24,660 bases of DNA from a virus. Each line of letters begins with the position of its first letter. Within the stretch, counting starts at the first letter, position 1. This document shows, one piece after another, positions 8,293 through 17,728 of the stretch. The stretch covers positions 1 through 24,660 of IMG/VR virus record IMGVR_UViG_3300017692_000008; one strand, given 5' to 3'. Position numbers and translations under genes: made by a program. A model generated the notes under the pieces. That model was not told where the DNA came from, ran no database searches, and saw only the letters and a list, made by a program, of their open reading frames with translations.

Positions 8293-8495
8293 CCTCCATA
8301 ACCACCAAATACCCCGACGAAGCCGTATCGGCGTATCTCGCATCGCAGCGTGTCAGGAATGCGCGCGTGGTGCGGGATTGCCTGAAGGCTGTGGCCGGTG
8401 AGACGAAGGATCCGCGGTTGATGACGGCGTTGCTGGTTGTGGCTGGGGCGGAGGATTTGGTGTTGGATCGGGTGTTTCGGGGGGTGAAGATATGA
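8289..8495 (+). CDS. Small hypothetical protein (68 aa)
   Basis: ATGA overlaps at both ends. The product is soluble and probably helical, with Val/Ala/Arg-rich sequence and a single L-M-T-A-L-L-V-V-A-G-A hydrophobic patch that is short for a membrane span. The second half of the gene is unusually G-rich on the coding strand. No family recognised. Confidence 0.65.
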   Translation: MTSITTKYPDEAVSAYLASQRVRNARVVRDCLKAVAGETKDPRLMTALLVVAGAEDLVLDRVFRGVKI

Positions 8496-9322
8496 CGCAA
8501 AATGAGATGTTTGATGTGGATCGCCCTACGCCCGAACAGACGATCGCTGCGGCGCTCGCGCATAACCCCGTCGCAATTTATGCGCTGTTTTCCGGAGGAG
8601 ACGGCAGCTTGCGCGCAACTCACTGGGCAATGAACAACGTCCCTGGATGCCGTGTCGCGCATATGAACACTGGTGTGGGCCTTGATGCTACCCGCAAGTT
8701 TGTGCGCGAAACGTGCGCTTACTATGGCTGGGATTTGACCGAAATCCGCGCCAAGGAGGATTGCGGGCAGGATTACGATCGTATCGTTCTGCAGCATGGT
8801 TTTCCGGGACCGGCCTCACACCGCTACATGTATATTCAGCTTAAAGAGCGCGCGATTGAGGAATTGGTTCGCAGATCAAAACAGCGTGGGTCGCGTGAAA
8901 AGGTAATGTTGTTGACTGGTATCCAGCACGACGACAGCCAGCGTCGAAGCGGTTACGGCGGTGGTGAAATCACTTTCAACAAGGCGCAGATGTGGGTCAA
9001 CCACATGTATTGGACGGATAAATCATCAGTATACCATTACCTGCGCGACCATCAGATCAAACGCAATCCTGTTTCAATCGAACTCGGTATGTCCGGTGAA
9101 TGCGGTTGCGGCGCTTTCGCTGACAAAGGCGAACTTGCAATTTGGCGCAGGGCCGACCCCAGTTTCGGTGAGCGGATTGACCGCTTGCAAGTGGAAGCCG
9201 CACAGGCCGGGGTTTATTGTCGGTGGGAAGGTGCCCCGCCTAAGCAGCGCGATGATACTCAGACGGAAGACATGTTTTCGCCGCTTTGCACCCATTGCAT
9301 TAAATCAAGGATGCCAACATGA
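8492..9322 (+). CDS. PAPS-reductase-like PP-loop protein
   Basis: 276 residues. An N-terminal pyrophosphate loop reads S-G-G-D-G-S at 34-39, followed by H44. Later come L-T-G-I-Q-H-D-D-S-Q-R-R at 141-152, the tG-x-R-x-x-E-S-x-x-R region of the family, then C204/C206 and C266/C269, a possible metal or Fe-S site. PAPS reductase, CysD and DndC share this fold and use ATP or an adenylated sulfate. Phage members have unknown substrates. The usual loop is S-G-G-x-D-S; here the Asp is displaced. Close to the methyltransferase-like gene, it may take part in DNA or nucleotide modification. Confidence 0.8.
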   Translation: MTQNEMFDVDRPTPEQTIAAALAHNPVAIYALFSGGDGSLRATHWAMNNVPGCRVAHMNTGVGLDATRKFVRETCAYYGWDLTEIRAKEDCGQDYDRIVLQHGFPGPASHRYMYIQLKERAIEELVRRSKQRGSREKVMLLTGIQHDDSQRRSGYGGGEITFNKAQMWVNHMYWTDKSSVYHYLRDHQIKRNPVSIELGMSGECGCGAFADKGELAIWRRADPSFGERIDRLQVEAAQAGVYCRWEGAPPKQRDDTQTEDMFSPLCTHCIKSRMPT

Positions 9323-15144: not shown

Positions 15145-15164
15145 CAGACAATTTGGAGGGTTCG

Positions 15165-15341
15165 ATGACATTGGAAGAAATTCGATCCGCATTGCAGGAT
15201 CGCAGGATACGGATGGTAGCTAAAGCGGTGGGGGTGCATCATACCACAATTTACGCTCTTCGCGATGACCCGCAGCACATGCCGACCCGGCGCGTGGCGC
15301 AGGCTCTGGCGGATTATCTCAGCAAGGATAACAGGGCATGA
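15165..15341 (+). CDS. Small helix-turn-helix regulator
   Basis: 58 residues from the ATG 15165-15167, with TTTGGAGGG upstream; the frame is open back to 14988 but lies antisense to the Sak4-like gene. Residues about 15-38 form a helix-turn-helix: R-M-V-A-K-A-V-G-V-H-H-T-T-I-Y-A-L-R-D. The rest is a short helix pair. It starts the rightward replication arm beside a divergent promoter region and overlaps the primase-helicase gene by ATGA. It probably controls one or both promoters in 15088-15164, or acts at the downstream origin-like region. Confidence 0.75.
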   Translation: MTLEEIRSALQDRRIRMVAKAVGVHHTTIYALRDDPQHMPTRRVAQALADYLSKDNRA

Positions 15342-17476
15342 AGGGCCACGACTTCGACGCCATCAAGCAGAATTATCCGCTTGATGAGGTCATCGGCCGC
15401 ACGATCAAGCTGCGCAAGCACAGTGGCTGGTACGAGGGTCTATGCCCGTTCCACAACGAGAATAGCCCGAGCCTGAAGTTCAAGGAATCGGACGAGCACT
15501 GGCATTGCTTCGGCTGCGGCGCGCATGGCGATGTGATCGATTTTGTATCCAAGATCGAGCATATCACTATCGCCGAAGCTGTAGGCCGGTTGACCGGCGG
15601 GCAGTCTATCGAGCTGTCCGATACCGATCGGCAGAAGCGTAAGGAATGGCTGGCAGCGCAGGAGGCTATTGCTCAGCAGTTACGCAAAGCCGCCATTGAG
15701 CAAGCCAACCGCCGTTGGGATCGTGCGCGCGACGTTGAAGGCACGCAAGGCTATCTGGAGCGCAAGCATGTCGCGCCATGCGGGTCGCGCATGGAGGGTG
15801 ACAATCTTCTTGTGCCGATGTGGGACGCCAATGGCGACATCATCAACGTCCAGTCGATCGCACCGGATGGTACCAAGCGGTTCCAGAAAGATGCCCCCAC
15901 AGTCGGCGCGCGCTTCTACATAGGCATCGGTTTTGGTCGCGTTACGATCTGTGAGGGATTCGCAACAGGCGCGTCCATCTATGAGGCCGTGCCTGACAAG
16001 GTGTGCATCGCCTTCAGTGCGGGGCAGGTAGAGAATATCGCGCGGGAAATGATTGCCGCCGGTGTGGGCGTGGTCATCGCCGCGGATCGCAAGGGCTTGT
16101 CCGCCATGGAGCAGCTTGGTGCGGAGCTGGGGGTGCCGGTAATTGCGCCGCCGCAGCTTGCCAGTGGGGATGACGATTTCAACGGGCAGATGATCGAGCA
16201 AGGTGTCGAGGCGGTGGCTGCGACGTTCCGGCAAGGGCTGATCGACTTCGCCAACCGTCCCGAGCCGCCAGCAGCAGCGCCGCCATGCGCTATCTCGTTT
16301 GTCGATGCCATGGACTTTAAGGAAGCGGACATCCCGTTGCGCCCGTGGATAATACCTGGCGCGTTGTTGGCGGGATCCACGCACATTCTTGCAGCGCCTG
16401 GTGGCACCGGAAAGTCGGTGTTTACGCTTCAGCTAGGGCTTATGCTGGCTGCGGGCAAAGAATGGGCAAAGTGGCGCCCGAAGAAGAAGTGCAAGGTGCT
16501 TATCATCAATGCAGAGGATGACATAGCCGAGCAGCGGCGGCGTATGGTGGCGGCGCAGACTGTGATGGGATTTGGTGCCGAGCGAGGGCAGATCATGCTT
16601 GCCGATGCGCCAGAAAATATCCTGATGTCCACCAGCGATCCGGTGAAAAAGTCCCTGATCGCGACGCCGTTGGTGGACCAGTTGGTGGATGTCATCAAGC
16701 ATTACGGCATTGACGTGGTGATCGTGGACCCATTTGCGGAGACGTTCGATGGCGACGAGAATAGCAACGGCGACACCAAGTGGGCGATGAAGATATGGCG
16801 CGATAAGATCGCTCGCCCGACAGGCGCCGCGGTCTATCTGGTACATCACACCACCAAGGGGTCCGAGGACAAGGCGGGTAGCGCGGACGTGATTCGCGGT
16901 GGCGGCGCCATCGTAAATTCCGCACGTCTGGCGGCAACGCTGTTCGTGATGTCGAAGGGTGAGGCGTCCGCGCTATCGGTGAAGGAAGATGATCGCTTTC
17001 GCTACGTTCGATACGACGATGCCAAATCCAACAATTCGTTGATTGGCGGGCGGTCGTGGTTTGAGAAAATTTCTGTCGTTCTCCAGAATGGGGCGGCTGA
17101 CGATAGCGAGGGCGGTGATGAGGTTGGAGCGCTCAAGCCATGGGTGCCCAATGGCCTTGGTGCATATGAGCCATCGCAGATCATGCGGGTGCTGAATGCG
17201 CTTGAAGACGGCTTTGTCGATCAGGATGGCGTGGCCACAGATCAGCCATTCAGCAAGAGCGCGGCCGGCGGGTCGAAGCGCTGGATAGGCTATCTGATTG
17301 GTGACATGATGGGCGTCGAGGATGACGAGGCGCGCAAGATCACCAGCCTGCTGATGGATGGCAAGATGATCGAAGAATACGATTTTCACGATAGCGTGAA
17401 GGGTCGCGCGGCAAAGGGTTTGCGGGCCAATATCGAGGTCGCAAACAAGGCTTTTGGCCTTTCCCCAATTGGGTAA
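15338..17476 (+). CDS. Primase-helicase (CHC2 zinc finger, TOPRIM, RepA-like RecA ATPase)
   Basis: 712 residues with three modules. Residues 30-75 form the DnaG-type CHC2 zinc finger: C36, H39, C57 and C60. Residues about 155-295 resemble a TOPRIM fold, with C-E-G-F-A-T-G-A-S (E206) and A-A-D-R-K-G (D250). The usual second acidic residue after D250 is absent. Residues 335-590 form a RecA/RepA-like ATPase: A-P-G-G-T-G-K-S at 353-360, then V-V-I-V-D-P-F and Y-L-V-H-H-T-T-K-G. The protein should prime and unwind at the phage origin. It is coupled to the HTH gene by ATGA. The stop lies in the repeat region starting at 17461. Confidence 0.9.
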   Translation: MKGHDFDAIKQNYPLDEVIGRTIKLRKHSGWYEGLCPFHNENSPSLKFKESDEHWHCFGCGAHGDVIDFVSKIEHITIAEAVGRLTGGQSIELSDTDRQKRKEWLAAQEAIAQQLRKAAIEQANRRWDRARDVEGTQGYLERKHVAPCGSRMEGDNLLVPMWDANGDIINVQSIAPDGTKRFQKDAPTVGARFYIGIGFGRVTICEGFATGASIYEAVPDKVCIAFSAGQVENIAREMIAAGVGVVIAADRKGLSAMEQLGAELGVPVIAPPQLASGDDDFNGQMIEQGVEAVAATFRQGLIDFANRPEPPAAAPPCAISFVDAMDFKEADIPLRPWIIPGALLAGSTHILAAPGGTGKSVFTLQLGLMLAAGKEWAKWRPKKKCKVLIINAEDDIAEQRRRMVAAQTVMGFGAERGQIMLADAPENILMSTSDPVKKSLIATPLVDQLVDVIKHYGIDVVIVDPFAETFDGDENSNGDTKWAMKIWRDKIARPTGAAVYLVHHTTKGSEDKAGSADVIRGGGAIVNSARLAATLFVMSKGEASALSVKEDDRFRYVRYDDAKSNNSLIGGRSWFEKISVVLQNGAADDSEGGDEVGALKPWVPNGLGAYEPSQIMRVLNALEDGFVDQDGVATDQPFSKSAAGGSKRWIGYLIGDMMGVEDDEARKITSLLMDGKMIEEYDFHDSVKGRAAKGLRANIEVANKAFGLSPIG

Positions 17477-17489
17477 AATAATTGGGGAA
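17461..17489. repeat. 10-bp inverted repeat over the primase stop
   Basis: TTCCCCAATT and AATTGGGGAA are perfect 10-bp arms with a 9-nt spacer that contains the TAA stop of the primase-helicase gene. It could form a hairpin or be a pair of facing protein-binding sites. It is the left edge of the repeat-dense region. Confidence 0.75.
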
Positions 17490-17550
17490 TGTTTTGGGAA
17501 ATTGGATTCAAGAATGGCGGAAAACTGCCAATCCCCAATTCCCCAAAACA
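17490..17550. repeat. 16-bp near-perfect inverted repeat with inner hairpin
   Basis: TGTTTTGGGAAATTGG at 17490-17505 pairs with CCAATTCCCCAAAACA at 17535-17550 with one mismatch. The 29-nt spacer contains TGGC and GCCA around GGAAAACT, a second small hairpin, so a branched fold is possible. Confidence 0.7.
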
Positions 17551-17574
17551 CGCCCCCCTAAAGGGGGGGGGCGT
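17550..17574. repeat. Very GC-rich hairpin with nine consecutive G
   Basis: ACGCCCCCC, a TAAA loop, then nine G followed by CGT. Nine base pairs can form, with three G left over. It directly follows the 16-bp inverted repeat and could stop transcription or a replication fork. Confidence 0.65.
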
Positions 17575-17699
17575 ATGTTTGGGGATGAAATTGGGGAGGC
17601 TGGCATGTTTTCCAGATGGGGATTGGGGAAGCAGATGGCGTAGCGCTAACCCCTCCCCCTGCCGTGGTTGTGGGGTGAGAAAAAAGTTGGTGGTGGGTG

Positions 17700-17728
17700 T
17701 TGACGGGATGGCGATATGGCGTCATATT
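17700..17728 (+). promoter_or_regulatory. Promoter for the small-gene and packaging operon
   Basis: TTGACG at 17700-17705, a 17-bp spacer, then CATATT at 17723-17728 (four of six). It lies 22 bp before the ATG at 17751. TGTTGAC (17698-17704) and GTCAACA (17732-17738) flank the promoter as inverted copies, a possible operator pair. Confidence 0.6.

Follow-up and report, generated by a model that had tools for sequence, protein, structure and literature searches.

What is the function of a field of short repeats that begins within the last codons of a phage primase-helicase gene, and which protein reads it? The question is raised by IMG/VR virus record IMGVR_UViG_3300017692_000008, of which positions 1 to 24,660 were analysed (24,660 nucleotides, here called the window) and in which a first-pass annotation had proposed an iteron field and candidate origin after the primase gene. 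The proposal is supported, as relatives that keep the primase also have a repeat array at this place. We regard it as quite likely that the array serves as the phage's replication origin, with the phage's own primase-helicase as its reader. This view is drawn from sequence comparison alone, and the start of replication at this site is inferred in the absence of binding or replication data.

The gene in question (15338..17476, plus strand) encodes 712 residues comprising a CHC2 zinc ribbon (5-95), a Toprim domain (~202-260), a RepA/DnaB-like RecA-fold ATPase of the AAA_25 family (315-509) and a predicted C-terminal winged helix. Pfam detects Zn_ribbon_DnaG (6.7e-25), AAA_25 (8.8e-38) and, under its cut-off, Toprim_3 (2.5e-4); the PDB search matches RepA of RSF1010 (1g8y, E 2.4e-13), and no SF3 helicase family was reported by either search. 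For the C-terminal domain, Pfam and PDB sequence searches gave nothing significant, and a fold search of the PDB returned weak matches only, all of them to winged-helix proteins (best E 5e-3). AlphaFold models residues 582-712 with a mean pLDDT of 83, rising above 90 over most of the predicted winged-helix core (~residues 650-697; 17285..17428, plus strand), which consists of two helices followed by a β-hairpin wing. The tip of the wing is formed by residues 686-689 in the model; the codons of K688-G689-R690 (17399..17407, plus strand), which covary with the repeats, lie at this strand-turn-strand position. A helix-turn-helix (HTH) gene is located directly upstream of the primase gene (15162-15341). 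Divergent genes for Sak4-like, SSB-like, YqaJ nuclease and DEAD helicase proteins lie to the left, and small unknown genes, the terminase and an SU10-type portal to the right. Elsewhere in the window, the open reading frame at 8492-9322 has a weak match to a PAPS reductase domain, just under the cut-off (E 3.6e-4).

The repeats themselves are confined to this single place in the window. Five exact copies of ATTGGGGA had been counted, three forward and two reverse, and all five could be located within 17462-17629: on the plus strand at 17481-17488, 17590-17597 and 17622-17629, and on the minus strand at 17462-17469 and 17532-17539. In 100 dinucleotide shuffles of the whole window 0.55 copies are expected and three are the maximum, and a scan of the whole window found none outside the array. 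Allowing up to one mismatch, TTCCCCAA occurs at nine sites in 17461-17630 (score 85; the shuffles average 44 and reach 56 at most); four of the nine are near copies, in line with the degenerate copies described before. Relative to the primase stop codon the array spans -13 to +157. It opens with iteron 1 (TTGGGGAA, 17461..17468, minus strand), which overlaps the 3' end of the primase gene, and a degenerate copy that includes the stop codon (TTGGGTAA, 17469..17476, plus). Iteron 2 (TTGGGGAA, 17482..17489, plus) is followed 11 bp on by the degenerate iteron 3 (17493..17500, plus), and iteron 4 (TTGGGGAT, 17531..17538, minus) 8 bp on by iteron 5 (TTGGGGAA, 17539..17546, minus). Iterons 6 (TTGGGGAT, 17579..17586) and 7 (TTGGGGAG, 17591..17598), 12 bp apart, and iteron 8 (TTGGGGAA, 17623..17630) are all on the plus strand. 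The large inverted repeats noted earlier were confirmed, with arms at 17461-17470/17480-17489 and 17484-17505/17535-17556, and the left one indeed crosses the end of the gene, the stop codon TAA (17474-17476) lying inside it. The last primase residues (...L-S-P-I-G) are encoded by the first reverse copy. Owing to this overlap of iteron 1 with the end of the coding sequence (17461-17476), a different word entails different terminal residues: the protein ends in LSPIG in the window, in LSITS in L002 and in SSITK in L013. A DNA-level search of the array region against sequenced phages gave no match, and a tRNA search found none.

Much of the array is folded into a conserved hairpin of ~95 nt (17519..17613), composed of an outer stem, two pairs of iterons and a GC-rich central stem with a TAAA loop. 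Folded as DNA, the 126-nt piece that carries it reaches -37 kcal/mol compared with -19.5 for shuffles (z -6.4). Its shape is common to twelve close relatives, in which compensatory changes occupy 32 cells versus 13.7 in shuffles, with slid controls lower than the true hairpin alignment. More broadly, a strong hairpin (z below -3) is found at 95% of 77 array loci and in 9% of control stretches. At its centre, the palindrome CCCCCCTAAAGGGGGGGG (17553..17570) forms a C-rich/A+T/G-rich hairpin that recurs in relatives with a different iteron word; this central element, for example CCCCCCTAAAGGGGGG, stays while the surrounding word changes, and could be a priming site. In three further relatives (L022, L023, L025) the sequence past the stop codon carries repeats rich in GCAGTAGC/CTGCTGC together with a long nested hairpin, from which a single word is hard to extract.

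Conservation was assessed in ~130 distinct relatives, obtained by searching viral contigs, species genomes, phages and plasmids at the protein level; a search of genome contigs gave no matches with close alignment and seven host genomes with broader alignment. Of the ~130, more than 60 phages, prophages and plasmids of Alphaproteobacteria have an array behind the homologous gene. Every member of the close set has one past the stop codon, with words that differ: TTGGGG in most, ATGAGG in L002, L003, L004 and L011, TTGAGG in L013 and L014, and TTGGA in L016. Deeper relatives use TGGCGCA, TGACGCA, CCGGGGA, TTGCGCA, TTCGCGGA, GTGCGGA, TGTGGCA and others, and TTGGGGA, TTGAGGA and ATGAGGA are likewise among the array words. 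Each array holds one word, all copies of which change in concert between relatives. The layout is kept as well: a reverse copy, ~20 bp, a forward copy, 11 bp, another forward copy, and then more copies around a GC-rich hairpin. With R for reverse and F for forward, the ATTGGGGA array of the window reads R-13 F8 F19 R57 R65 F105 F117 F149, and the ATGGCGCA array of the Novosphingobium prophage L045 R29 F47 F58 F67 R100 R108 F145 F155 F185; the forward-forward step measures 10-12 bp in 15 of the 21 distinct arrays scored. The conservation that the first-pass annotation proposed to check holds for an array after homologous primase genes and not for the spelling ATTGGGGA; relatives share the layout and have copies that agree with one another. 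The array is the single cluster in each of 13 long records, several of them closed by terminal overlap: no second repeat cluster was found in them, and outside the array there are at most two copies of the word per 400 bp.

The picture is not uniform. About one third of the relatives have no array by automatic call; in some of them the array is displaced or its word falls outside the pattern that was scored, and in others it seems to be absent. Rhizobium phage RHph_X2_26, whose annotated primase is among the best protein matches, has neither the wing motif nor an array and hence provides no test of a rule linking the two. In L300, L303 and L304, which have an unrelated C-terminus, short repeats still follow the primase-helicase stop codon (GTGTGCGG, GTCCGC and ACGTCCGGC); perhaps the C-termini here are other reader domains, each with its own word.

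When the C-terminal domains were aligned beside the words, the tripeptide corresponding to K688-G689-R690 of the window appeared to follow the word. A comparison by eye, automated afterwards, yielded the rule that R at column 689 goes with a word ending in GCA and any other residue with GGA, and this rule was fixed before later loci were fetched. Scored automatically, residue 689 agrees with word position p7 in 55 of 56 cases of the rule-making set, in 17 of 18 later-fetched loci and in all six scorable loci of a second batch. After clustering the domains at 50% identity 32 of 34 agree (p 3e-7). The automatic call covers only words ending in G[G/C]A, leaving 45 loci uncalled and 11 ambiguous, and strongly self-complementary arrays (TTCCGCAA) cannot be oriented. 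The exceptions are L016, which fits if the alignment is shifted by one residue, and L252, which has three weak copies only. Associations with p4 and p5 are weaker and have exceptions of their own, such as L075 and L105, which combine K with C at p5.

The word also switches together with the domain. Identity between L009 and L016 is 81-95% over most of the gene and ~45% at the C-terminal domain and array; L005 and L002 share ~90% identity over the gene's first half, and their domains and arrays differ. The array is shared by the window and L005 at 96-99% identity, and nearly all stretches past +200 are below 50%. The word therefore travels with the C-terminal domain and not with the body of the gene or its neighbours; the identities of the Sak4, SSB, YqaJ nuclease and DEAD helicase proteins do not track it. 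The link to the primase, first proposed from its position, is far stronger than suggested, since the word changes with the wing tip in the C-terminal domain of the primase itself.

Binding by this domain would account equally well for the co-change of word and wing if the array were an operator or attenuator through which the domain regulates its own or downstream genes, the origin lying elsewhere. Terminator-like hairpins within the array and a promoter-like match starting at 17700 would also suit such a role. We nevertheless consider it unlikely. Phages with a common array have unrelated sequence downstream, and some arrays are displaced from the primase stop codon, by +1.95 kb in L204, +1.75 kb in L087 and ~+0.55 kb in L068, with words that still match the wing in L204 and L068, so that no fixed target gene remains. 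The displaced array of L204 (TGTGGCA, with a KRM tip) is closely similar to the gene-adjacent array of L118, which also has KRM, as though an insertion had separated the array from its gene. In both L204 and L068 the words are those that the wing predicts (R with GCA), which speaks for a separate cis site of the protein and against a by-product of the end of the gene. Moreover, the terminator-like hairpin lacks a clear T run, and the arrangement of eight to nine phased sites, of either orientation, about a long hairpin resembles an origin.

Shared ancestry alone could also couple word and wing, if domain and array were inherited as a cassette without physical contact. In favour of this, the two are often swapped jointly, and the permutation scores of the column scan are not corrected for ancestry. 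In that scan, however, columns 688, 689 and 690 of the predicted wing tip rank first in the whole domain for p5, p7 and p4, respectively (z 9.6, 21 and 5.0). Furthermore, close pairs switch both partners: L287 (KSN/GGA) and L288 (KRN/GCA) within one 70% cluster, and the Microvirga plasmids L296 (KGN/GGA) and L295 (KRN/GCA). A helicase-domain tree provides six independent contrasts at p7, in which the residue follows the word in 5.7 on average and opposes it in none (p 0.03). In our judgement mere co-inheritance is therefore improbable.

A structured RNA or transcription terminator, in which the repeats would be by-products of base pairing, is suggested by the ~95-nt hairpin and its compensatory changes; against this, an Rfam search with the element found no match, the copies outside the hairpin (17461-17500 and 17623-17630) change along with those inside, and the word tracks residues of a protein, leaving very little room for this explanation. 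Binding by the neighbouring HTH protein, which the first-pass annotation had considered on account of its nearby gene, is excluded, since no HTH homologue was detected in L005, whose array keeps its word unchanged, and we give next to no credence to another phage regulator, as the identities of the other candidates do not follow the word.

With the primase-helicase as the most plausible reader, the co-change of wing tip and word across relatives reveals part of a putative natural recognition code. A wider proposal, towards which we lean only slightly, is that the three-residue tip of the wing sets the origin word for a large family of phage and plasmid replicons, and that one to three residue changes together with changes in eight to nine dispersed copies would give rise to a new replicon, the old and the new being mutually incompatible. 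Such diversification may be driven by incompatibility or by parasites that target origins.

How might such an origin work? In the proposed scheme the C-terminal winged helix would bind iterons starting within the final codons of the gene that encodes it, with the wing tip K688-G689-R690 reading the variable bases of the word. When several phased copies of both orientations are occupied, the RepA/DnaB-like helicase may be loaded and assembled; the ~95-nt inverted repeat would either melt or be extruded as a hairpin, where the zinc-finger/Toprim primase could lay the first primers. As all of these steps reside in the primase-helicase, one protein would recognise, open and prime the origin. The conserved place of the array, its layout and hairpin, and the co-change of wing tip and word are supported by comparison of sequences; physical binding, melting, priming and the start of replication at the array are inferred only. 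General features of iteron origins are met, namely multiple copies of a short word, phased and confined to one place of the replicon. GC skew, proposed earlier as a check, is ~0 to the left of the array and positive to the right, which is compatible with an origin here and does not locate it: the rise is gradual across the primase gene, over the 2-3 kb upstream of the array, so the skew does not pin the origin.

Plasmids offer a complementary view. Three of the four complete circular Alphaproteobacteria plasmids checked carry the gene with a clearly matching array; one of them, a 54-kb Rhodoplanes phage-plasmid, has eight copies of GGTGACGC, and a Methylobacterium plasmid has G-rich repeats that the automatic call did not class. 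One Microvirga plasmid also encodes repB and repC, so the primase-array module is not the sole replicon there. The system is best explained as a self-contained replicon in which the initiator docks on iterons located 3' of the gene that encodes it. This reading supplies a candidate replication origin for Alphaproteobacteria phages of a large group, most of them uncultured, and for plasmids related to them. AAA_25 primase-helicases, which have been described as a family that lacks any known function (PMC8965321), would acquire a likely role. With more than 20 words paired with wing tips, the word is partly predictable from the protein sequence and vice versa, and this natural variation makes initiator-origin specificity directly testable.

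Several known systems resemble parts of this arrangement. The α protein of satellite phage P4 is described as a single protein with a bacterial-type (Toprim) primase, a helicase and a winged helix that binds origin repeats, and that then unwinds and primes (PMC4234260). The window protein likewise has a bacterial-type primase at its N-terminus (Zn_ribbon_DnaG, with Toprim_3 under the cut-off), whereas its helicase is an AAA_25 domain related to RSF1010 RepA instead of the SF3 type of P4 α. The winged helix of P4 α binds the repeats; for the window protein we have a predicted fold and strong co-change with the repeats, and no binding data. P4 also differs in using an origin plus crr, in contrast to one repeat cluster per genome here (13 long records), and the long conserved hairpin built partly from iterons sets the present system apart from it.

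Similarly, the Pri-Rep proteins of PICI/SaPI elements have an iteron origin immediately 3' of the replication gene, and gene plus ori drives plasmid replication (PMC6092414). The array of the window is also immediately 3' of its gene, in the same place as in most relatives, although the helicase types differ and the PICI/SaPI iteron sets flank an AT-rich region, whereas the centre here is a GC-rich hairpin with a TAAA loop. To our knowledge, the residues that read the word have not been mapped in Pri-Rep.

A modular exchange of domain and origin has been reported for Vibrio PLE, where the DNA-binding domain of RepA and the origin covary and are swapped as a module (PMC8263062), much like domain and array here. 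The PLE initiator is unrelated (RepA_N domain) and its iterons are semi-palindromic, of ~30 bp; the passages of that source consulted here contain no residue-level code for it.

In RSF1010, RepA, RepB' and RepC act with oriV iterons and ssi priming hairpins (PMC4234260). The RecA-fold helicase is homologous (PDB 1g8y) and iterons are again combined with a hairpin, but what RSF1010 divides among three separate proteins, the window unites as primase, helicase and predicted iteron reader in one chain, with the origin following the gene. The primase-helicase ORF904 of the archaeal plasmid pRN1 has a C-terminal winged helix and, ~50 bp 3', a hairpin of ~100 nt conserved in shape and not in sequence (PMC4234260). 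A ~100-nt stem-loop kept in shape is likewise found 3' of the gene in the window and its relatives. Unlike the window array, the pRN1 origin lacks iterons. No specific binding was detected for pRN1, and the archaeo-eukaryotic prim/pol and SF3 helicase of pRN1 were not found in the window protein by Pfam. Taken together, the best explanation that this comparison offers is a system that would work like P4 α and PICI Pri-Rep, with a stem-loop like that of pRN1, but with a RepA/DnaB-like helicase.
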